A stretch of 36,830 nucleotides of DNA from Caldisericota bacterium (GCA_026390285.1 JAPLGH010000074.1:1-36830); one strand, 5' to 3'; positions 70 to 9,482 are shown, numbered from the stretch's first letter. Program-made: numbers and translations. Notes: a model not told the origin generated them from the letters alone.

Positions 70-1890
70 GTGAAAGAAACCGTGCTTCTGCTATACTCTC
101 CGAAGCAGGATGCATCCTGCAGAAAGGGGGTGGGGAAATTGACACAGCACTTTGTTGGGCTCACAGCACCGGCGCGGCTCCTAGCCAAGATCGCATTTGC
201 CAGTTCGGCCGGCGCCTCGGGAGATGTGCTTCTCGTCCTTCCCAAGACTTCGGACCAGGAAATCGGCCGCGTCCACCGTCTGGTGGCAGCAGCTCGCAAG
301 GCTCTCGGCGCGGCTTCGATTCCTTTCCAGATCGTCGAGGCCGACGAGGCATTCCGTATGGCGACATCCGGAGATCGGTCCCGGACACTCGTCATCGATC
401 TCGACCTCCTGCACCATGAAAATATCGACCTGCTCGGGTCGGCCTGTAACTCGAATTCACAGGTAATTGGCTACAAACTCAAGCAGAACCTCTCCAGAAC
501 CTCGGCTGCCATCTTCGCCCGGGCCGACTCCAATTCCGCTCTTGCCGGCACGGTTGTGCGCCATCTGACTGAGGCTGGGATCGTGGACCAGACGAGCTTT
601 ATCCATATTACTTCCGCAGGCCAGTCTGCCGCTGTCGACGATAGTGTCCTCGAGGCATATGGCAAGGTGAAAGCTGAGGTGCCACAAGCCCGTCTCGCCA
701 TCGAACTGGCCAAAGACGGCGTGGAATCAGCTATCGAACACTGTTCTCTTCACTATGGTGTCCTTGTGCTTGGATTGCCAAAGCACCAAAAAGCGGGATC
801 GGTCACAGAACATCTGATCGCTCTGGCGATGGCAGGACTCCTCCACACAACCACGGTTTTCGTCTATGCGCGCGGCGCAGAAGTCGAGCAGCTGTCAGCC
901 ATGACGAAAGCCATCGAGCCATGGATCCTCAAGAACACATTCTCCCAGGACGAGTTTGCGGACATCGAGCGGCTCCTCCAGGCCAAGCGCGACCACCACG
1001 TGTCGATCTCCCTCGTCTTGCCGGCGCTCAATGAGGAAAAGACGGTCGGACGGGTCATCGACGTCTTCAAGAGCTTCCTGATGGACCAGCGGCCCCTGCT
1101 GGACGAGATCATCCTCATGGACAGCAACAGCGCCGACCAGACACGCGCAATCGCAGCCGCACGTGGCATCCCCGTCTATGTCCACCAGCAGGTACGCCCG
1201 GACCTCGGAGCCTATACCGGCAAGGGCGAGGCGATGTGGAAAGCACTGTTCGTCGCAACAGGAGACATTCTTGTCTTTGTCGACACCGACCTGTCCAATC
1301 CCAATCCGGCATTTGTCACAGGACTTGTCGGTCCCCTGCTCCTGGACGAGCGCCTGAACTTCATCAAGGGGTTCTACCGCAGGCCTGTGCGCATTGTCAA
1401 CGAGTTCGTGGAAGTCGGCGGAGGCCGCGTCACGGAGCTCGCTGCACGCCCGTTGCTCAATCTCTGGTATCCGGAACTCGGAGGACTGTTCCAGCCGCTT
1501 GCGGGGACCGTCGCTGCTCGAGCCGGCATCCTGCGCGAGCTGCATTTCCTGACCGGCTACGGCGTCGAGATCGGGCATGTCATCGAATATGCCCGCAAGT
1601 ACGGCATCGAGGGCCTGGCCCAGTCGGAGCTGGGCGAGATCGTTCACCGCAATCAACCTCTGGAGGCCCTGTCCAAGATGTCGTTTCAAGTCCTGGAAGC
1701 CGTTTTCCAGCTGTCGCCTGGCATGATGGCCCCCGGCATGGCTGACCGTATGAACGGCATCCTGCGCCAGCCCTTCCTCTCCGACACCGGGTTCACGCTC
1801 TTGCAGACACGACTGGGGCAGGAGATGCGACCGCCGGCGTCCTCAGTGCCACCTCTCGATCTTTCACCTGTAGCTGCACCAGGAACCTGA
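70..1890 (+). CDS. gpgS: Usp-like domain fused to glucosyl-3-phosphoglycerate synthase-type glycosyltransferase
   Basis: 606 aa. The first ~300 residues resemble tandem universal-stress-protein folds (VLVLGLPKHQ near residue 235). From about residue 311 a GT-A glycosyltransferase begins: LVLPALNEEKTVG, then MDSNSADQT, GKGEAMWKAL (typical of GpgS, family GT81) and the metal-binding DTDLSNPNP near residue 404, then GVEIGHVIEY. Members of this family transfer glucose from an NDP-glucose to 3-phosphoglycerate, giving the precursor of the compatible solute glucosylglycerate; acceptor and donor are inferred here. Cytosolic. The GTG at 70 has no clear ribosome binding site. In-frame GTG 130 and TTG 139 follow a purine-rich AAAGGGGGTGGGG, so the N-terminus is uncertain. 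The GH13 gene follows 16 bp downstream, so co-transcription is likely. Mannosylglycerate-type enzymes are an alternative. Confidence 0.8.
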   Translation: MKETVLLLYSPKQDASCRKGVGKLTQHFVGLTAPARLLAKIAFASSAGASGDVLLVLPKTSDQEIGRVHRLVAAARKALGAASIPFQIVEADEAFRMATSGDRSRTLVIDLDLLHHENIDLLGSACNSNSQVIGYKLKQNLSRTSAAIFARADSNSALAGTVVRHLTEAGIVDQTSFIHITSAGQSAAVDDSVLEAYGKVKAEVPQARLAIELAKDGVESAIEHCSLHYGVLVLGLPKHQKAGSVTEHLIALAMAGLLHTTTVFVYARGAEVEQLSAMTKAIEPWILKNTFSQDEFADIERLLQAKRDHHVSISLVLPALNEEKTVGRVIDVFKSFLMDQRPLLDEIILMDSNSADQTRAIAAARGIPVYVHQQVRPDLGAYTGKGEAMWKALFVATGDILVFVDTDLSNPNPAFVTGLVGPLLLDERLNFIKGFYRRPVRIVNEFVEVGGGRVTELAARPLLNLWYPELGGLFQPLAGTVAARAGILRELHFLTGYGVEIGHVIEYARKYGIEGLAQSELGEIVHRNQPLEALSKMSFQVLEAVFQLSPGMMAPGMADRMNGILRQPFLSDTGFTLLQTRLGQEMRPPASSVPPLDLSPVAAPGT

Positions 1891-1906
1891 CCACGATGTA
1901 GTCGAC

Positions 1907-3544
1907 ATGGTCCTGACTGACGCTCAGAACCAACCGTGGTGGAAACGAGGCGTCATCTATCACTGCTACGTCCGCAGCTTCATGGACGGCAACGGCGATG
2001 GCATAGGAGACCTGCCTGGGCTGATCAGCAGGCTGGACGTCCTGCGCGACGGTACACCAACGTCGCTCGGCATCGAAGGGCTCTGGCTGTCACCTGTGTA
2101 CCCTTCCCCCAACCGAGACTTCGGCTATGACATCAGCGACTACCGAGCAATCGACCCCATGTACGGCACGCTGGATGACTTCGACCGCCTCCTGGCTGGC
2201 GCCCGCTCACGGGGCATCCACCTCATCATGGATCTTGTCGTCAACCACAGTTCGACCGAACACGCGTGGTTCAGGCAAGCGTGTACCTCCCGCGAGAATC
2301 GATTCCACGACTATTACGTCTGGAGCCACGGACGGGCCGGCAAACCTCCCAACAACTGGGGTTCAACCTTCGGAGGATCAGCCTGGGAATGGAATGAGCA
2401 GACCCATGAGTTCTACCTGCACAGTTTCCTCAAGGAACAGGCCGACCTGAACTGGCGCAACCCCCGGCTTCGCGAAGAGGTCCGGGGCATCATGCGATTC
2501 TGGATGGAGCGGGGTGTCGACGGCTTTCGTCTCGACGTCGCCAACTACTATGTCAAGGACGCCCAGCTTCGCGACAACACTCATGAACTGGTCATTGCCC
2601 AACCCATGCCCGGCAACCCTTCGAAAACGCTGTTCATTCCGATGTCACGCGAGGTGTATGATCACACCGTGGACCAGCCGGAAACGCACGACGCCCTGCG
2701 CGAAATGCGGGGCGTTATCGACGAGAAGCCCGGGCGGATGATGGTGGGCGAGATCACCCAGCGCACGCTGAGTCAGGTACTTTCCTACTATGGGAACCAC
2801 GAAAGTGAACTGAACCTGGTATTCAACTTTTTCTTTTTCGTTCGACGTTTCAGGGCAAAAGACTTCCGCGACATCATCAGGCAAACCCTCGATCTGCTGC
2901 CCGAGGGCGCTTGGCCCGCATGGGTGTTGAGCAACCATGACGTCGTCCGCGCGGTGTCGCGCTACCACCTGACGCCTGCGATGACGAAGAGCATGATAGG
3001 GCTCCTTCTTACACTCAAGGGAACGCCGTTCCTTTACAATGGAGAGGAGCTGGGGCTTGCGAACACGCCCATCCCCAGGAGACTGGTTCAAGATCCTGTG
3101 GGCAAGAGATACTGGCCCCTTCCCGTTGGCCGGGATGGTGAACGCACACCCATGCCATGGGATGCGTCACGGGGCACCGGCTTCACCACCGGAACGCCAT
3201 GGCTGCCCGTCCATGCGTCTGCCACGACGTACAGTGCTCAGTCGGCTGACCCAACCTCGGTACTGAGCTTTACGAGACAGCTGTCATGGTTCAGGTCGCA
3301 CCATCCTACACTGAACGCGGGCGACATGTCGATCGTCGACGGTCCGTCGGACACCTGCCTCTGCTTCACTCGCACATCACCTGCAGAGCTCATGACGGTG
3401 ACCATCAACCTGTCCAGCCGGACTGTCCCGATTCCACGGGGCAGCTTCACGTCAGACCAGACGCCTCTGTTCAGTACAGAGGAGCAGCCATCCAAGGACA
3501 GCCTGGCTCCCTGGGAGGTCAGGATAGCGGCCGCCAGCGCATAG
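1907..3544 (+). CDS. GH13 alpha-amylase-family glycosidase (alpha-glucosidase / oligo-1,6-glucosidase type)
   Basis: 545 aa, normal length for a GH13 (beta/alpha)8 enzyme. The start WWKRGVIYHCYVRSF.D is typical of alpha-glucosidase, oligo-1,6-glucosidase and trehalulose-type enzymes. The conserved regions are intact: region I MDLVVNH near residue 108, region II GFRLDVANYY with the nucleophile Asp near 209, region III MVGEI with the acid/base Glu near 282, and region IV LSNHD near 345. A short beta-sandwich C domain follows. There is no signal peptide, so it is probably cytosolic. It lies 16 bp after the GpgS-like gene; by context it may hydrolyse glucosylglycerate or alpha-glucosides, which is inference. 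The start at 1907 has only a weak ribosome binding site. The gene converges with the PAS gene, leaving 16 bp between the stops. Confidence 0.88.
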   Translation: MVLTDAQNQPWWKRGVIYHCYVRSFMDGNGDGIGDLPGLISRLDVLRDGTPTSLGIEGLWLSPVYPSPNRDFGYDISDYRAIDPMYGTLDDFDRLLAGARSRGIHLIMDLVVNHSSTEHAWFRQACTSRENRFHDYYVWSHGRAGKPPNNWGSTFGGSAWEWNEQTHEFYLHSFLKEQADLNWRNPRLREEVRGIMRFWMERGVDGFRLDVANYYVKDAQLRDNTHELVIAQPMPGNPSKTLFIPMSREVYDHTVDQPETHDALREMRGVIDEKPGRMMVGEITQRTLSQVLSYYGNHESELNLVFNFFFFVRRFRAKDFRDIIRQTLDLLPEGAWPAWVLSNHDVVRAVSRYHLTPAMTKSMIGLLLTLKGTPFLYNGEELGLANTPIPRRLVQDPVGKRYWPLPVGRDGERTPMPWDASRGTGFTTGTPWLPVHASATTYSAQSADPTSVLSFTRQLSWFRSHHPTLNAGDMSIVDGPSDTCLCFTRTSPAELMTVTINLSSRTVPIPRGSFTSDQTPLFSTEEQPSKDSLAPWEVRIAAASA

Positions 3545-3560: not shown

Positions 3561-4622
3561 TCACTCCGCTACGCAGGAATTCTTCCTCCCGGTAACGTCG
3601 CGGCCGATGACGACGACCGTGTCAGGACTCCCATCCGTCCTGACCAGTGCGCCACTGACTTCGACCTGCCGGGTCGAACCTGATGCGTCTTGGACATCGA
3701 AGACTTCCAATGGCTCGGTCCCTCCGAGCAGCAGCCGATTGAAGAGTGCCATGGCACGACTGAGATTGGCAGGTACGACCACATCGACGACGTCCCGCCC
3801 AATGAGGAGGGTGGAAGATACGCCAAGAAACTCGCACAACCGGGCATTCGCCAGGGTGATGCGCCTGTCGAGGTCGACCATGCAGATGTGCTCAGTCGAC
3901 CTGTTCAGGAAGACATCCAGCTGCTCCCTGCTCCTTTGCAGATCCTGCTCGTTCCTCCGCATCTCGGTGACATCAAACCCGATGCCGGCGACGTTTGCGA
4001 CAGAGCCCCGGATGTCCCACACCGGCACCTTGGCCGTGTGGTAAAATCGGTGTTCGCCGTCCGTGACATCGTCGTAGTCATGTGCCCACCCTTGTCCCGT
4101 GTCGAACACCATGTCATCCGTGGTCTCAAACTCCAGGGCGCGCTCGGGCGCAAAGAGTTCTCTGTCGGTGTGACCGATGAGCTCGTCGACCTCTCTGCTC
4201 TGCCAACGAGGCAGCATCGGATTGGTCTGTACCCATGCCAGATTCCCTGCCAGGTACCTATGGTCTCTCGACTTCAGCCAAACTGCAGCGGGAATATTGT
4301 CCATCAGCGCCCGGATGAAGGCGCGTGACTCCTCCAGTGCCTCCATGTTTTCCTGCCGGGCAAGAAACCTCTGCTGGAGGATGAGGGCGCGGACCGCTGC
4401 CCAGATCAAGACGCCGCTCGCGAGAGCGGCGATGGCCATCAGCACCTGCTGGCGAATGCTCAGACTGTTGGCGAAATCACCCAGCAGTGCTCCCCATAGA
4501 ATCACATAGAGGCATGCGGCCAGAGTGGCTCCAGTCCTCGCCCGCCTGAACCACCACGTCGGCCTTCCTGTCGCACGTGCTCCCTTACGATTGCTGCTGG
4601 TTGCTGCATTGTCCAACTTCAT
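3561..4622 (-). CDS. Membrane-anchored double-PAS protein without output domain
   Basis: 353 aa from the ATG at 4622, which is preceded by AGAAGGTGG; the longer ORF start at 4682 lacks a ribosome binding site. Two hydrophobic segments lie near residues 28-46 and 58-80, followed by a short linker helix and two PAS modules. PAS1 (about 105-225) has NIPAAVWLKSRDHRYL and ends in GIGFDVTEMRRNEQ. PAS2 (about 228-345) has RSTEHICMVDLDRRI and ends in VIGRDVTGRKN. PAS modules sense small ligands or redox state and normally feed a kinase, GGDEF or chemotaxis output, but this protein stops eight residues after PAS2. It may be a truncated sensor or a stand-alone sensor acting through partners. It is divergent from the GH4 sugar operon and convergent with the GH13 gene. 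Confidence 0.8.
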   Translation of the reverse strand: MKLDNAATSSNRKGARATGRPTWWFRRARTGATLAACLYVILWGALLGDFANSLSIRQQVLMAIAALASGVLIWAAVRALILQQRFLARQENMEALEESRAFIRALMDNIPAAVWLKSRDHRYLAGNLAWVQTNPMLPRWQSREVDELIGHTDRELFAPERALEFETTDDMVFDTGQGWAHDYDDVTDGEHRFYHTAKVPVWDIRGSVANVAGIGFDVTEMRRNEQDLQRSREQLDVFLNRSTEHICMVDLDRRITLANARLCEFLGVSSTLLIGRDVVDVVVPANLSRAMALFNRLLLGGTEPLEVFDVQDASGSTRQVEVSGALVRTDGSPDTVVVIGRDVTGRKNSCVAE

Positions 4623-4710
4623 CCGTCCACCTTCTCTCTTGACATCTGTGAGCGTACCCATCATGGAGGACCTGTCAAACACACCCGAAGAGCTCAGACC
4701 CCTCGAAGCC

Positions 4711-4849: not shown

Positions 4850-6175
4850 ATGAAAGTCAGCATCATTGGTGGGGGTGGAACAAGAGTCCCGATCCTTGTG
4901 GGCGCTCTGCTTGACCTCCAGGAACGGCTCGATCTCACAGAGATTGCGCTCATCGATCCCGATAGCGAACGGTTCGCCGCCATGGACAAGGTCATATCGG
5001 CCATCGTCCAGGACAGAAACAGAACCGTCGAGATCTTGCACGCCGGTACATTCCGCGAGTGCGTGACAGGAGCCTCCTTCGTCATCGCCGCCATACGCGT
5101 GGGCGGCGACCATATGCGTACGCTGGACGAACGGATTCCCCTCTCGATGGATGTCCTGGGCCAGGAGACCGTCGGCGCAGGTGGCTTCGCCATGGCTGTC
5201 CGTACCATCCCCGTCGTGCTGGACATGCTCAAAGAGCTGCGTGAGGTTGCGCCTGACGCCTGGTTCATCAACCTCACGAATCCGTCGGGGATCATCACAC
5301 AGGCCATCGTCAGCCACGGAGGCTTTCACAACGTCGTCGGCATCTGTGACGCGCCGACCTCCATCGGCATCCTGCTGGCCTACCTCCTCAAGGTGAAACC
5401 AGAAGATCTGGTGCTGGATTACTATGGGCTGAACCACTGCGGTTTCGTCAAGGGCGTCTACGCTCTCGGGCAGGACGTACTGCCCCAGGTCCTTTCCATA
5501 ATCGACCAGATGCCCGGCTTTGAGGAAATGACGCATTTCTCGTCGGAATTCGTGCGCCGACTGGGCAAGTTGCCCAACGGGTACATCTGGTACTACACCT
5601 TCAAGCGCGAATCACTTGCGGCCGTCAAGGCTGGTACGGAAACACGCGGCGAGGAGGTGGAACGCCTCAATGCACGGCTGTTCGCCGACCTGACGACCGC
5701 TGATGATCCCAAGGTCGTCTACGACACATATTTGGCTGCGCGCGAACACGGTCAGCTCCCAGAGGAGTTTCGGACCGCTATGAACCTCAAAAGTGGCCAG
5801 GGGTACAGCGCGGTTGCCATGGACGTGCTGCTTGGCCTGGCAGGCAAGGGCCAGGCTGTTGTCCCCGTCAATGTCATGAACCGTGGAGCGATTGCCGGCC
5901 TTGCTCTCGACGATGTCGTCGAGGTCCCGTCCCTGATCACGGAACGCCTTGTCCGCCCGCTGGTGGTCGGACCGATCGACAGGGAGTCACAACTGCTCAT
6001 CGAGCAGGTGAAACTGTACGAGAGGTCCCTCGTCGACGCGGTCGCGTACCGCGACCTTGGGGCTCTCATCGAGGCTCTGGCACTCAGTCCACTGGTCCCC
6101 TCGCCGGCCGTGGCACGAGATCTCGTCCTGGCGTTCAAAGAGCAGGAAGCCCCATACTTCGACGGCTTCAAGTAG
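4850..6175 (+). CDS. Glycoside hydrolase family 4 (6-phospho-glucosidase type)
   Basis: 441 aa from the ATG at 4850, which has GGAGG five bases upstream; the longer ORF start at 4829 lacks this. The N-terminal VSIIGGGGTRVP is the NAD(H)-binding Rossmann loop of GH4, followed by TNPSGIITQA, GICDAPTSIG and GLNHCGF. The Cys and His of the last two motifs are the expected Mn2+ ligands. GH4 enzymes cleave glycosides by a redox elimination mechanism using NAD+ and Mn2+, mostly on 6-phosphorylated disaccharides. The diagnostic tetrapeptide here is CDAP, close both to CDMP of phospho-alpha-glucosidases and to the CD.P of some annotated 6-phospho-beta-glucosidases, so the anomer is not decided. It is the first gene of a four-gene operon with transporter, deacetylase and kinase. 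Confidence 0.88.
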   Translation: MKVSIIGGGGTRVPILVGALLDLQERLDLTEIALIDPDSERFAAMDKVISAIVQDRNRTVEILHAGTFRECVTGASFVIAAIRVGGDHMRTLDERIPLSMDVLGQETVGAGGFAMAVRTIPVVLDMLKELREVAPDAWFINLTNPSGIITQAIVSHGGFHNVVGICDAPTSIGILLAYLLKVKPEDLVLDYYGLNHCGFVKGVYALGQDVLPQVLSIIDQMPGFEEMTHFSSEFVRRLGKLPNGYIWYYTFKRESLAAVKAGTETRGEEVERLNARLFADLTTADDPKVVYDTYLAAREHGQLPEEFRTAMNLKSGQGYSAVAMDVLLGLAGKGQAVVPVNVMNRGAIAGLALDDVVEVPSLITERLVRPLVVGPIDRESQLLIEQVKLYERSLVDAVAYRDLGALIEALALSPLVPSPAVARDLVLAFKEQEAPYFDGFK

Positions 6176-6206
6176 CCGCACGCATCCGCAATTCCCTGGA
6201 GGCAGC

Positions 6207-7568
6207 ATGAACTTCTGGAAGAAGCTTGCATACAGCTTCGGTTCGATGGGGGCAGGCCTGCCCGAGAACTGCTTCACGACGTGGGCCATGTACTTCTACG
6301 TGGACAAGTTGGGGCTCTCGCCGAGGCTCTTTGCCACAGCAATGCTGATCTATACGGTCTGGAACTGTCTGAACGACCCACTGTTCGGCTACTGGTCTGA
6401 CCGAACGCATACCCGGTGGGGGCGACGGATTCCCTATATCGCACTGGGAACGCTGCCCTTGGCGCTTGCCTTCTATTTAATCTGGGTCCCGCCGGCCGGA
6501 ATCACCGGCATGGCCATGTTCTGGTACTATCTCGCCATCATTTTTGCGTTCGACGGGTTCTACACGCTGGTCATCCTCAACTGGACGGCACTATACCCTG
6601 AGATGTACACGACGACACAGGATCGTAGTGTCGTCAATGCCTGGCGCCAGGTCCTCGGCATTGTCGGGGTCATCGTCGGGGTCGCACTTGCTCCCATCCT
6701 CATCGCCAAGTTCGGCTGGAAAGGACTGGGCGTCATCATCGGCAGCGGCACTGCGCTCGTCATGTTTGTTTCGCTGCTTGGCTCCAAAGAGAACCCGCGG
6801 ATACAGGGTGGCGAATCGCTGTCGCTCGGCCCGGCCATCAAGAATACGCTGATCAACAAGTCCTTCGTGACCTTTGTACTGTTCAACCTGTTCTTCCAGA
6901 CCGTCTTAGTCATGGTACAAGGTGTCATTCCCTTCTACACCCAGTTTGCGCTGCTGCTCACTGACACCCAGAAGACATTTGTGTTGCTGGCTGTGTTCCT
7001 CATGGCCATCATTTCGCAGTTGCTCTGGAACAAGGTCGTCATCAGGGTGGGCACGCGCAGTACAGCCATCATCGGTATTGGCCTGTTCACCGTTTTTCTC
7101 ATACCTCTCGCATTTGTGAAGACCCTTGGTGTCGGCATTGCCTTCTTCGCCCTTTTGGGGGTCGGGCTGGGTGCTCTTCTTCTCGTGGAGGACATGATGG
7201 TTGCCGATATCTGCGACGAAGATTACCTCAAGACCGGCACACGCCGCGAGGGCATGTACTACGGCGTCAACGCCCTCATCATGCGCAGCAGCGTCGCCAT
7301 TTCTGCTGGCATTATCGCCTTCGTCCAGATCAGGACACACTACGTTGCCAAACTGACCGATCCGACACTGCAGCCTCATACGGCGGTTGTCGGTTTTCGT
7401 GCCCTGATGAGCGGCATCCCTGCAGTGCTCATGCTTATTGCGCTCGTGTTCATCCTCATGTATCCCCTGTACGGCAAGAAGCTGGAGGCTGTCAAGAAAC
7501 AGTGTGCTCTCACCACCGCGTCGTGCCCCGATCCGGGAGCTCCTTCTCCCGGCACGCCTGCCATCTGA
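6207..7568 (+). CDS. GPH-family (MelB/LacS-like) sugar:cation symporter
   Basis: 453 aa with about 12 hydrophobic segments. The ATG at 6207 has GGAGG five bases upstream; the ORF-track start at 6057 lies inside the GH4 gene. The signature WSDRTHTRWGRRIPY between helices 2 and 3 is the glycoside-pentoside-hexuronide:cation symporter motif, and NDPLFG just before it matches the family's conserved Asp-containing helix. These inner-membrane carriers import sugars with Na+ or H+ without phosphorylating them. It starts 31 bp after the GH4 gene and ends 16 bp before the deacetylase, so it is the uptake step of this operon. Because it cannot phosphorylate the sugar, the downstream kinase is the likely source of a phospho-substrate for GH4 (inference). 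Confidence 0.88.
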   Translation: MNFWKKLAYSFGSMGAGLPENCFTTWAMYFYVDKLGLSPRLFATAMLIYTVWNCLNDPLFGYWSDRTHTRWGRRIPYIALGTLPLALAFYLIWVPPAGITGMAMFWYYLAIIFAFDGFYTLVILNWTALYPEMYTTTQDRSVVNAWRQVLGIVGVIVGVALAPILIAKFGWKGLGVIIGSGTALVMFVSLLGSKENPRIQGGESLSLGPAIKNTLINKSFVTFVLFNLFFQTVLVMVQGVIPFYTQFALLLTDTQKTFVLLAVFLMAIISQLLWNKVVIRVGTRSTAIIGIGLFTVFLIPLAFVKTLGVGIAFFALLGVGLGALLLVEDMMVADICDEDYLKTGTRREGMYYGVNALIMRSSVAISAGIIAFVQIRTHYVAKLTDPTLQPHTAVVGFRALMSGIPAVLMLIALVFILMYPLYGKKLEAVKKQCALTTASCPDPGAPSPGTPAI

Positions 7569-7584
7569 ACGGAGGCCCTGGACA

Positions 7585-8325
7585 ATGAACTGGAATGAAT
7601 TCCTGCCGATCCCGCCCATCGATTCAGCACAGAAGTACGTCGTGTTCCAGCCACATTCCGATGATGCCGTCTGGTTCGCCGGCGGCCTCCTGCTCAAGCT
7701 GGCCAAGGAAGGGAAAGACGTCACGCTTGTCACGATGACCGACGGCTGCCTGGGCAGCACGGACGTCTCGATGACACGCGAACGCCTGGTCGAGATCCGC
7801 CGTGAGGAGGACCAGAAGGCTGGCGAGGCCATCGGCGTTCATAAACACCTGTACCTGGTGTTCCACGATGGTTCCCTGCCCCACTGCGGGGAAACGACCG
7901 CGGCGATGGTCCGCATCCTCCGGCAGGAACAGCCGGACGCCGTGCTGGCGCCCGACCCGTGGCTGACGTATGAGGCCCATCAGGACCACCTGAACTGTGG
8001 GTGGTCGGCCGCAGAAAGCCTGATCTACTGCAACCTGCCCCTGTATCTTCCCGAACTGCCCCCTCACGACGTCCGCTTCATCGCGTTCTACCTCACCAGC
8101 AGGCCAAACCAATTTGTCGACATCTCAGCCGAGAACGAGGCGAGGCTGGCAGCCCTCAGCCTGTTCAGGAGTCAGTTCACCCCGGAGACCCTGGAAATGG
8201 CGACCCAGTACCTCAACCTCAAGGCCTCGGAACTGGGTGAAGCACACGGGATGCGGCTGGCAGAGGCATTCAAGGTACTGACCCCTCTCCACCTCCACAC
8301 GAGCGTCGACTCGGAGTCTCTCTAG
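7585..8325 (+). CDS. PIG-L / LmbE family N-acetylglucosaminyl deacetylase
   Basis: 246 aa from the ATG at 7585, which has GGAGG upstream; the longer ORF start at 7438 overlaps the transporter. The zinc-binding motif PHSDD is near residue 25, with HQDH further on, as in PIG-L/LmbE deacetylases (MshB, archaeal diacetylchitobiose deacetylase, BshB). Family enzymes remove an acetyl group from N-acetylglucosaminyl substrates. There is no signal peptide, so it is cytosolic. It lies 16 bp after the symporter and its stop is one base from the next start, so it is tightly coupled to the kinase. In this operon a role as an N-acetyl-disaccharide deacetylase is more likely than a thiol-cofactor role, but that is inferred from context. 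Confidence 0.85.
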   Translation: MNWNEFLPIPPIDSAQKYVVFQPHSDDAVWFAGGLLLKLAKEGKDVTLVTMTDGCLGSTDVSMTRERLVEIRREEDQKAGEAIGVHKHLYLVFHDGSLPHCGETTAAMVRILRQEQPDAVLAPDPWLTYEAHQDHLNCGWSAAESLIYCNLPLYLPELPPHDVRFIAFYLTSRPNQFVDISAENEARLAALSLFRSQFTPETLEMATQYLNLKASELGEAHGMRLAEAFKVLTPLHLHTSVDSESL

Positions 8326-8326
8326 C

Positions 8327-9229
8327 ATGGCTGTGACGTACTATCTCGGCGTCGACGGGGGGACCACCAGAACGAAGGCTGTCGTCGGTGACGATGCTGG
8401 CCACATAGTCGGATCCGGCGAAGGAGGAGCCTCCAACTACCAGGTCGTGGGGCTCGAGGCCGCCATGTCAGGCATCACGGAGGCCGTACGGAGTGCACTA
8501 ACCGCTGCGGACATGTCGATGGCACAGATCGAACGTGCCGTGTTCGGACTGTCGGGCATGGATCTGCCCATGCACCGTGACGTGCTTGAGGAAGCTCTGA
8601 CGTCCGCATTCCCTGAGCTTATCTTCGACCTTGTCAACGATACGTGGATCATGCTCAAGGCAGGGAACGACAAAGGCTGGGGTATCGCTCTGGTGTGCGG
8701 CGGAGGCGCCAACGCCTGTGCCTGCAGTCGCGACGGGGCGTGGGTAACGCTCCGTGGACTTGGCTACGAGAGCGGCCTGCGAGGCGGGGGACTGGACATG
8801 CTGCGCGACATCCTGCATTATGCATTCCTTTCCCATGACGGGACAGGACCGAAAACTGTGTTGGAGCGGACGGTGCTCGAGGTGACGGGTGCCCCCGACT
8901 ACGACACACTGCAGCTCTTGTTCCTTGAGGCCACACAAGACATGGTGGGGCACGGCGAATTGCTGCAGCGGGCTCTTGCTGTCGTGCCGCTGGTCTTCGA
9001 CGGGGCGACGGCGGGCGACGAAACGTGCAAGCACATCCTCCTGCTTCAGGCAGAGTCCCTGGCGGAGGGAATCACGGGACTCATCCGCAAGATGGCCTTC
9101 GAGCATGAGGCGATTGATGTCGTCCTGGGAGGCTCGGTCTTCGGGGGCAGCAATCCCCGCCTGGTCGAGAGCCTGACCCTTCTCGTTCACGAGGAGGCTC
9201 CGAGGGCATTCCTTCATCGTCCTGTGTAA
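8327..9229 (+). CDS. BadF/BadG/NagK-type ASKHA sugar kinase (probable N-acetylglucosamine kinase), C-terminus possibly frameshifted
   Basis: 300 aa. The N-terminal YLGVDGGTTRTKAVV is the phosphate-1 loop of the ASKHA fold, followed by GLSGMD, LVNDTW (catalytic Asp position), LVCGGGANACA and VVLGGSVFGG near the C-terminus (adenosine motif). This matches the BadF/BadG/BcrA ATPase family that includes eukaryote-like GlcNAc kinases. The start follows the deacetylase stop by one base. Family members usually end with a helix like GA.L.AL. Here the frame stops at 9229, while the +2 frame continues as MALQRMGKF to a stop at 9300. A one-base deletion near 9200-9229 may therefore have removed the last ~24 residues. 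Predicted role: phosphorylate an imported GlcNAc-type sugar or disaccharide. Confidence 0.8.
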   Translation: MAVTYYLGVDGGTTRTKAVVGDDAGHIVGSGEGGASNYQVVGLEAAMSGITEAVRSALTAADMSMAQIERAVFGLSGMDLPMHRDVLEEALTSAFPELIFDLVNDTWIMLKAGNDKGWGIALVCGGGANACACSRDGAWVTLRGLGYESGLRGGGLDMLRDILHYAFLSHDGTGPKTVLERTVLEVTGAPDYDTLQLLFLEATQDMVGHGELLQRALAVVPLVFDGATAGDETCKHILLLQAESLAEGITGLIRKMAFEHEAIDVVLGGSVFGGSNPRLVESLTLLVHEEAPRAFLHRPV

Positions 9230-9407
9230 TGGCTCTGCAACGTATGGGAAAGTTCGAAGCGGCAACCACCTATGCGGTCCTTGCCAGCCAAGTGGTCTAG
9301 CAATAAAAAGTGGAATTGCTACACTGGGAATATGCCTCTGTCCTAAGGCTGTGCTGATTCGACCGCGTCAACCCAGGATCGAGGCATTTGTCTGTCTCCG
9401 AAGAAGT

Positions 9408-9482
9408 TGGCTGAGGCGGCTGGAGTCGAACCAGCAATTCATGGCTCCAAAGGCCACTGTCCTACCATTAGACGACGCCCCA
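9408..9482 (-). tRNA. tRNA-Gln (anticodon TTG)
   Basis: Read on the minus strand this folds as a full cloverleaf. The acceptor TGGGGCG pairs with CGCCTCA. The D arm is GTC-taatggtag-GAC. The anticodon stem GTGGC/GCCAT carries the loop CTTTGGA, giving anticodon TTG. The T arm is GCTGG-TTCGACT-CCAGC. The discriminator base is G, as expected for tRNA-Gln, and the 3' CCA is encoded (9408-9410). It sits between the sugar operon and the TraX-like gene, on the opposite strand to both. Confidence 0.95.

Follow-up and report, generated by a model that had tools for sequence, protein, structure and literature searches.

Introduction

In the chb operon of Escherichia coli, a phosphotransferase system (PTS; ChbBCA) imports the sugar with 6-phosphorylation, ChbG, a protein of the YdjC family, N-deacetylates it, and the glycoside hydrolase family 4 (GH4) enzyme ChbF cleaves the product. 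GlvA-type GH4 enzymes, the 6-phospho-alpha-glucosidases of Bacillus subtilis and Klebsiella, act on PTS-fed alpha-glucosides in systems that contain no deacetylase. PTS uptake is the usual explanation for GH4 6-phospho-glycosidases, and how these enzymes work in bacteria without PTS permeases has been left unexplained. According to the account of Walter 2021 given in PMC13197890, E. coli ChbF does not cleave the disaccharide in its N-acetylated form and depends on prior action of ChbG. In the chitinolytic pathway of Thermococcus and Pyrococcus, the CE14/PIG-L enzyme Dac deacetylates the non-reducing sugar only, with N-acetylglucosamine (GlcNAc) also being a substrate (PMC9779004), and the GH35 enzyme GlmA acts on the unphosphorylated sugar. 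The supply of 6-phospho-glucosides to GH4 enzymes by the ATP-dependent beta-glucoside kinase BglK of Klebsiella is established, and within GH4 GlvA is alpha-preferring and BglT beta-preferring (PMC10628242). The present analysis concerns a four-gene operon on a contig of 36,830 nucleotides (GCA_026390285.1, JAPLGH010000074.1:1-36830; this whole stretch is the window) from Candidatus Cryosericum (Caldisericota), encoding in this order a GH4 glycosidase, a GPH-family symporter, a PIG-L deacetylase and a BadF-fold kinase. Our tentative interpretation is that the operon may provide a PTS-free route for a disaccharide or glycoside containing N-acetylhexosamine, probably alpha-linked.

Results and discussion

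Operon structure and conservation

The original prediction, an earlier reading of this DNA, described a tight GH4-GPH-PIG-L-BadF operon, and the open reading frames and family searches bore this out. All four genes lie on the + strand with intergenic gaps of 31, 16 and 1 bp. The first three (GH4, GPH and PIG-L) have GGAGG-like ribosome-binding sites, and in profile searches each of the four proteins exceeded the Pfam cut-off of its family. The symporter scored 207 bits for the MFS_2 domain (cut-off 27), and 169.6 bits for TIGR00792, which is below 231.35. Scanning for promoters and terminators yielded no signal stronger than in shuffled sequences.

Synteny was examined by tBLASTn of the window proteins against the loci of relatives. 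The four genes were found in order in L003, L042 and L006 (where BadF is cut by the contig end), and in L002, L004 (Ca. C. terrychapinii) and L007 the order is kept, but with an insert before BadF; L008 shows GH4-GPH-PIG-L and then ends. In other Cryosericum genomes with conserved order the operon proteins are 60-93% identical, and the window PIG-L is 84-89% identical to that of named Cryosericum relatives. The ratio of non-synonymous to synonymous substitution rates (dN/dS) was 0.09-0.16 for GH4, PIG-L and BadF, at dS up to 1.7, and the operon genes are under purifying selection. Because of this recurrence and the low dN/dS, the gene order reflects more than chance.

In another class of the phylum, two genomes (G049 and G050) carry GH31-GH4-PIG-L with BadF nearby, an ABC-type permease and ATPase lying in between in G050. 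Identity to the window proteins is 40-42% for GH4 and PIG-L and 48-50% for BadF. GH4 occurs in 14 of the 54 phylum genomes, confined to two genera that both carry Dac-type PIG-L. Genus g3 has PIG-L without GH4, adjoining genes for a PGI/PMI-type isomerase, a ROK kinase and glycosidase-like proteins.

Two variable sites were seen within the operon. Two symporter types with about 65% mutual identity alternate in one slot (window 6207-7568; L003, L004, L007, L042) of an operon that is otherwise 79-90% identical, which suggests transporter exchange. The PIG-L/BadF junction holds differing opposite-strand inserts in three species (L002:8816-10310, L004:8939-13274, L007:9090-9515), among them the phage-defence candidates TIR-like, PDC-S19 (DUF3644) and HEPN-like, and is a possible insertion hotspot.

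Predicted Dac-type deacetylase

The best solved relatives of the window PIG-L protein were archaeal diacetylchitobiose deacetylases (3wl4, 8.8e-50), ahead of the BshB-like 2ixd (7.6e-18). The protein is 37-40% identical to Dac enzymes and has their His-Asp-His metal ligands, catalytic Asp, PDPWLxYE segment and C-terminal His (residues from PMC9779004); the methyl-pocket Trp227 of Pyrococcus Dac is not conserved. The BshB profiles TIGR04001/TIGR04000 scored below cut-off (98.4 against 182.5 bits for BshB1, and 41.4 against 195.25 bits), and PIG-L stands apart from BshB in the tree; on these cut-offs and the tree a thiol-cofactor role was rejected. The enzyme is of the Dac (diacetylchitobiose deacetylase) type, and deacetylation at the non-reducing sugar is its predicted activity. 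The alternative outcome considered in the original prediction, a BshB/MshB grouping together with unconserved gene order, was not observed. The proposal that PIG-L replaces ChbG is plausible and better supported than before, and its pairing with GH4 makes mechanistic sense, since ChbF requires prior deacetylation by ChbG.

GH4 motif, clade and likely linkage

The GH4 protein has the Glyco_hydro_4 and 4C domains, the GGG dinucleotide loop and the metal-binding Cys and His of the family. When compared with the nine -1 subsite residues of ChbF listed in PMC13197890, it was identical at eight, and the ninth, Asn173, is replaced by Asp167. Arg is present at the equivalents of ChbF 96 and 282, as in all phospho references covering those columns, whereas of the non-phospho enzymes MelA has Thr at both and LplD has Met at 96, the one column covered. 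The motif containing the Asp reads CDAP. The solved beta enzymes 1s6y, 5c3m and 1up4 have CNVP and the solved alpha enzymes 1u8x, 6dux and 6vc6 CD[MQ]P; E. coli ChbF has CNIP, GlvG CDMP and MelA CHSV.

With CDAP in place of the CN[VI]P of ChbF, BglT and 1s6y, and a tree position outside the ChbF/1s6y clade, the protein is, judged by motif and phylogeny, not a ChbF. It shares the Asp, which is the proposed general acid of GlvA, and the phospho-type arginine with the 6-phospho-alpha-glucosidases, yet does not group with GlvA; its clade sits with Sinorhizobium and Streptomyces proteins (CDGA, CDSP), away from the ChbF and GlvA groups. The conserved Arg pair and the CDAP Asp thus indicate that the enzyme is probably of the phospho type and more likely to cleave alpha- than beta-linkages.

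The BadF kinase and the absence of PTS permeases

The window BadF protein scored far under the cut-off of the NagK equivalog NF046058 (68.7 against 370 bits). NAGK, MurK and archaeal hexokinase have a [GS]D[DE]GS motif that is missing from every GH4-linked BadF protein in the comparison; the window protein reads ESGLRGGG instead of GDEGS. In the tree, Cryosericum BadF groups with G049/G050 and Haliovirga (support 0.987), and the three kinase types with the motif branch elsewhere. The nearest BadF from another phylum is encoded on a plasmid of Haliovirga abyssi (NZ_AP027060.1) in an operon of GH4, YdjC (PF04794, the family of ChbG), BadF, ABC and nagB. As in Cryosericum, GH4, an N-deacetylase, a sister BadF and a non-phosphorylating transporter are adjacent there; unlike Cryosericum, Haliovirga has a CNVP-type GH4, a ChbG-family deacetylase, an ABC transporter and nagB. 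We found no functional study of that operon.

GH4-BadF pairs also occur in a Chloroflexota plasmid and, with a NagB-like gene between them, in four Deinococcus plasmids; these give weaker support because a firm grouping of their BadF proteins with the Cryosericum clade was not obtained. A PIG-L-GPH pair was found in a Subdoligranulum plasmid, with no GH4 or BadF match adjoining.

None of the 15 Cryosericum genomes gave a PTS_EIIC match over cut-off in a search that had positive controls and was confined to this EIIC family; HPr and EI are present. Like every absence reported here, this one is weakened by genome incompleteness (the window genome is 72% complete). The original prediction held that kinase and symporter replace the PTS. 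This is plausible and better supported than before, given the missing PTS_EIIC, the retained Arg96 and Arg282 and, above all, the recurring GH4-BadF partnership exemplified by Haliovirga. Klebsiella BglK likewise makes a 6-phospho-glycoside for GH4 with ATP, but it belongs to another kinase family, ROK, acts on plain glucosides and has no deacetylase partner.

Proposed pathway and alternatives

The analysis showed which genes are present, how they are conserved, which families and clades they fall into, the state of their motifs and the lack of PTS_EIIC and NagB matches; every substrate, the step order, the linkage and the product fate are inferred. The GPH symporter would import the sugar unmodified, and the BadF kinase would phosphorylate it with ATP, probably at O6 of the non-reducing sugar. 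PIG-L would strip the N-acetyl group from the phosphorylated non-reducing sugar, and GH4 would cut the glycosidic bond by NAD-dependent oxidation-elimination, yielding hexosamine-6-phosphate along with another sugar. Barring a deaminase that has escaped recognition, the former would enter UDP-GlcNAc synthesis via GlmM, which had matches in all 15 Cryosericum genomes (over cut-off in 11). Such salvage is a possible outlet, and the simplest one since no NagB was found in the genus. The overall logic would be that of the E. coli chb operon, with GPH and BadF for the PTS, PIG-L for ChbG, a GH4 of another clade (CDAP for CNIP) and no NagB found.

A more far-reaching version is possible, if doubtful: a BadF-fold disaccharide kinase would feed a GH4 6-phospho-alpha-glucosaminidase, a GH4 specificity of which we know no description, and GH4 and BadF would form a module with interchangeable deacetylase and non-PTS transporter in at least four phyla, as a kinase-driven counterpart of PTS/GH4 pathways.

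We consider a Thermococcus-like order of steps unlikely. PIG-L would then deacetylate the imported disaccharide, GH4 would act as exo-glucosaminidase on the unphosphorylated product in place of the GH35 GlmA, and BadF would phosphorylate the resulting glucosamine. This order is in line with the closeness of PIG-L to archaeal Dac, which is active on unphosphorylated diacetylchitobiose and GlcNAc, and with the monosaccharide kinases among the BadF relatives, but not with the phosphate-type arginines of GH4, which the compared non-phospho enzymes lack (both in MelA, the one covered column in LplD), nor with the missing GDEGS-type motif of the GH4-linked kinases.

The original prediction named N,N'-diacetylchitobiose as the substrate, with the same chemistry as ChbG and ChbF. 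The Dac-type deacetylase, the eight identical -1 subsite residues and the analogous Haliovirga operon with its ChbF- and ChbG-type parts agree with this, but the Asp in the GH4 motif, as in alpha enzymes, points to an alpha-linked substrate and makes chitobiose unlikely, and the GH4 clade is separate from ChbF. Chitin catabolism is itself poorly supported in Cryosericum, since GH18 chitinase was found in only 1 of the 15 genomes and NagB was not found. The claim of identical chemistry was thus not upheld, and we regard this substrate as quite improbable. Even less probable is a deacetylase that is merely co-located and serves a thiol cofactor or an envelope metabolite while GH4, GPH and BadF process an ordinary alpha-glucoside: the upstream GH13 alpha-glucosidase-like gene, seen in all Cryosericum loci that reach so far except L005, the GH31 adjoining GH4 in G049/G050 and the lack of NagB would suit it, but PIG-L has Dac features, falls short of the BshB1 cut-off and is found together with GH4 and BadF in two classes.

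Several observations weigh against the PTS-free N-acetylhexosamine route that we prefer. NagB was found in none of the 15 Cryosericum genomes (PF01182) and none of the 54 phylum genomes (TIGR00502), with controls positive. NagA is patchy, being over cut-off in 6 of the 15 Cryosericum genomes, which do not include the near-complete G028 and G029, and so are SIS proteins beyond the two GlmS-attributed domains, which had no match in the same two genomes. To our knowledge, no member of the GH4 clade has been characterised or structurally solved, and no BadF-family disaccharide kinase is known. The equation of Asp with alpha-cleavage is an extrapolation based on six structures, three alpha and three beta, the overall score favours the beta enzymes (201 bits for 1s6y against 152 for 1u8x), and the N-terminal loop of GH4, GGGGTR against GGGS[ST][YF], is unlike that of all phospho-GH4 references. 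Finally, the kinase of the window genome is truncated, and in Ca. Cryosericum septentrionale SMC1 each of the two operon copies has lost a gene by deletion: GH4 is internally deleted and cut to about 92 residues in L009, and about 18 codons remain of the symporter in L005. The two copies are therefore complementary.

A GlmD-like deaminase was considered for the SIS protein encoded beside PIG-L in G002-G005 and rejected, as this protein is an isomerase of the bact-PGI_C family; it was not found in Cryosericum in a search without a positive control.

If the proposed route is correct, the question of how GH4 enzymes work without a PTS would find its answer in the recurrent pairing of GH4 with BadF, joined by a deacetylase of one or the other of two unrelated families. 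The route would also assign a role to a BadF clade that so far has none, make a testable claim on a GH4 clade, and identify a way of amino-sugar salvage or utilisation in Cryosericum. We found no published description of this gene combination in the open-access papers searched, which is weak evidence of novelty.

Truncated kinase and neighbouring genes

The BadF gene is present as originally claimed, but it is not full length in the window: it encodes 300 residues against 332 in six intact relatives, the last 32 being missing. Owing to a deletion of about 25 bp near 9222, the conserved C-terminus (PVxGA...) no longer lies in the reading frame, and part of it (VMALQRMGKFEAATTYAVLASQVV) can be read in another frame (window 8327-9300). 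This frameshift may be real decay or an assembly error.

Table 1. Positions of the operon features and neighbouring genes in the window.
Feature	Position	Strand	Evidence
GH4 NAD-dependent glycosidase, CDAP-motif clade, 441 aa	4850..6175	+	PF02056 6e-42, PF11975 8.4e-36; best PDB 1s6y 2.8e-58; alignment and tree
Arg codon matching ChbF Arg96 of the -1 subsite, a residue that phospho-GH4 enzymes keep and MelA and LplD lack	5096..5098	+	aligned column; residue list PMC13197890
CDAP motif in GH4: metal-binding Cys, then Asp replacing ChbF Asn173	5345..5356	+	alignment with solved GH4 enzymes
GPH-family sugar:cation symporter, 453 aa	6207..7568	+	PF13347 4.5e-61; TIGR00792 8.9e-50, under curated cut-off
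PIG-L (CE14) N-deacetylase, predicted diacetylchitobiose-deacetylase (Dac) type	7585..8325	+	PF02585 3.4e-26; PDB 3wl4 8.8e-50; PDPWLxYE segment
BadF/NagK-fold sugar kinase, C-terminally truncated, 300 aa	8327..9229	+	PF01869 5.7e-26; NagK_SO3507 68.7 bits, cut-off 370
BadF C-terminus remnant, out of frame after ~25-bp deletion	9222..9300	+	alignment with L004, L009, L042
GpgS (glucosyl-3-phosphoglycerate synthase, extra ~280-aa N-terminal part), immediately followed by GH13 alpha-glucosidase-like gene	70-3544		
PAS-domain gene	3561-4682	-	
tRNA-Gln (TTG)	9408-9482	-	

The GpgS and GH13 pair is kept upstream of the operon across Cryosericum loci. The PAS-domain gene, which is divergent from the operon, is missing or a fragment in some of these loci, and the tRNA gene lies just downstream of the operon.

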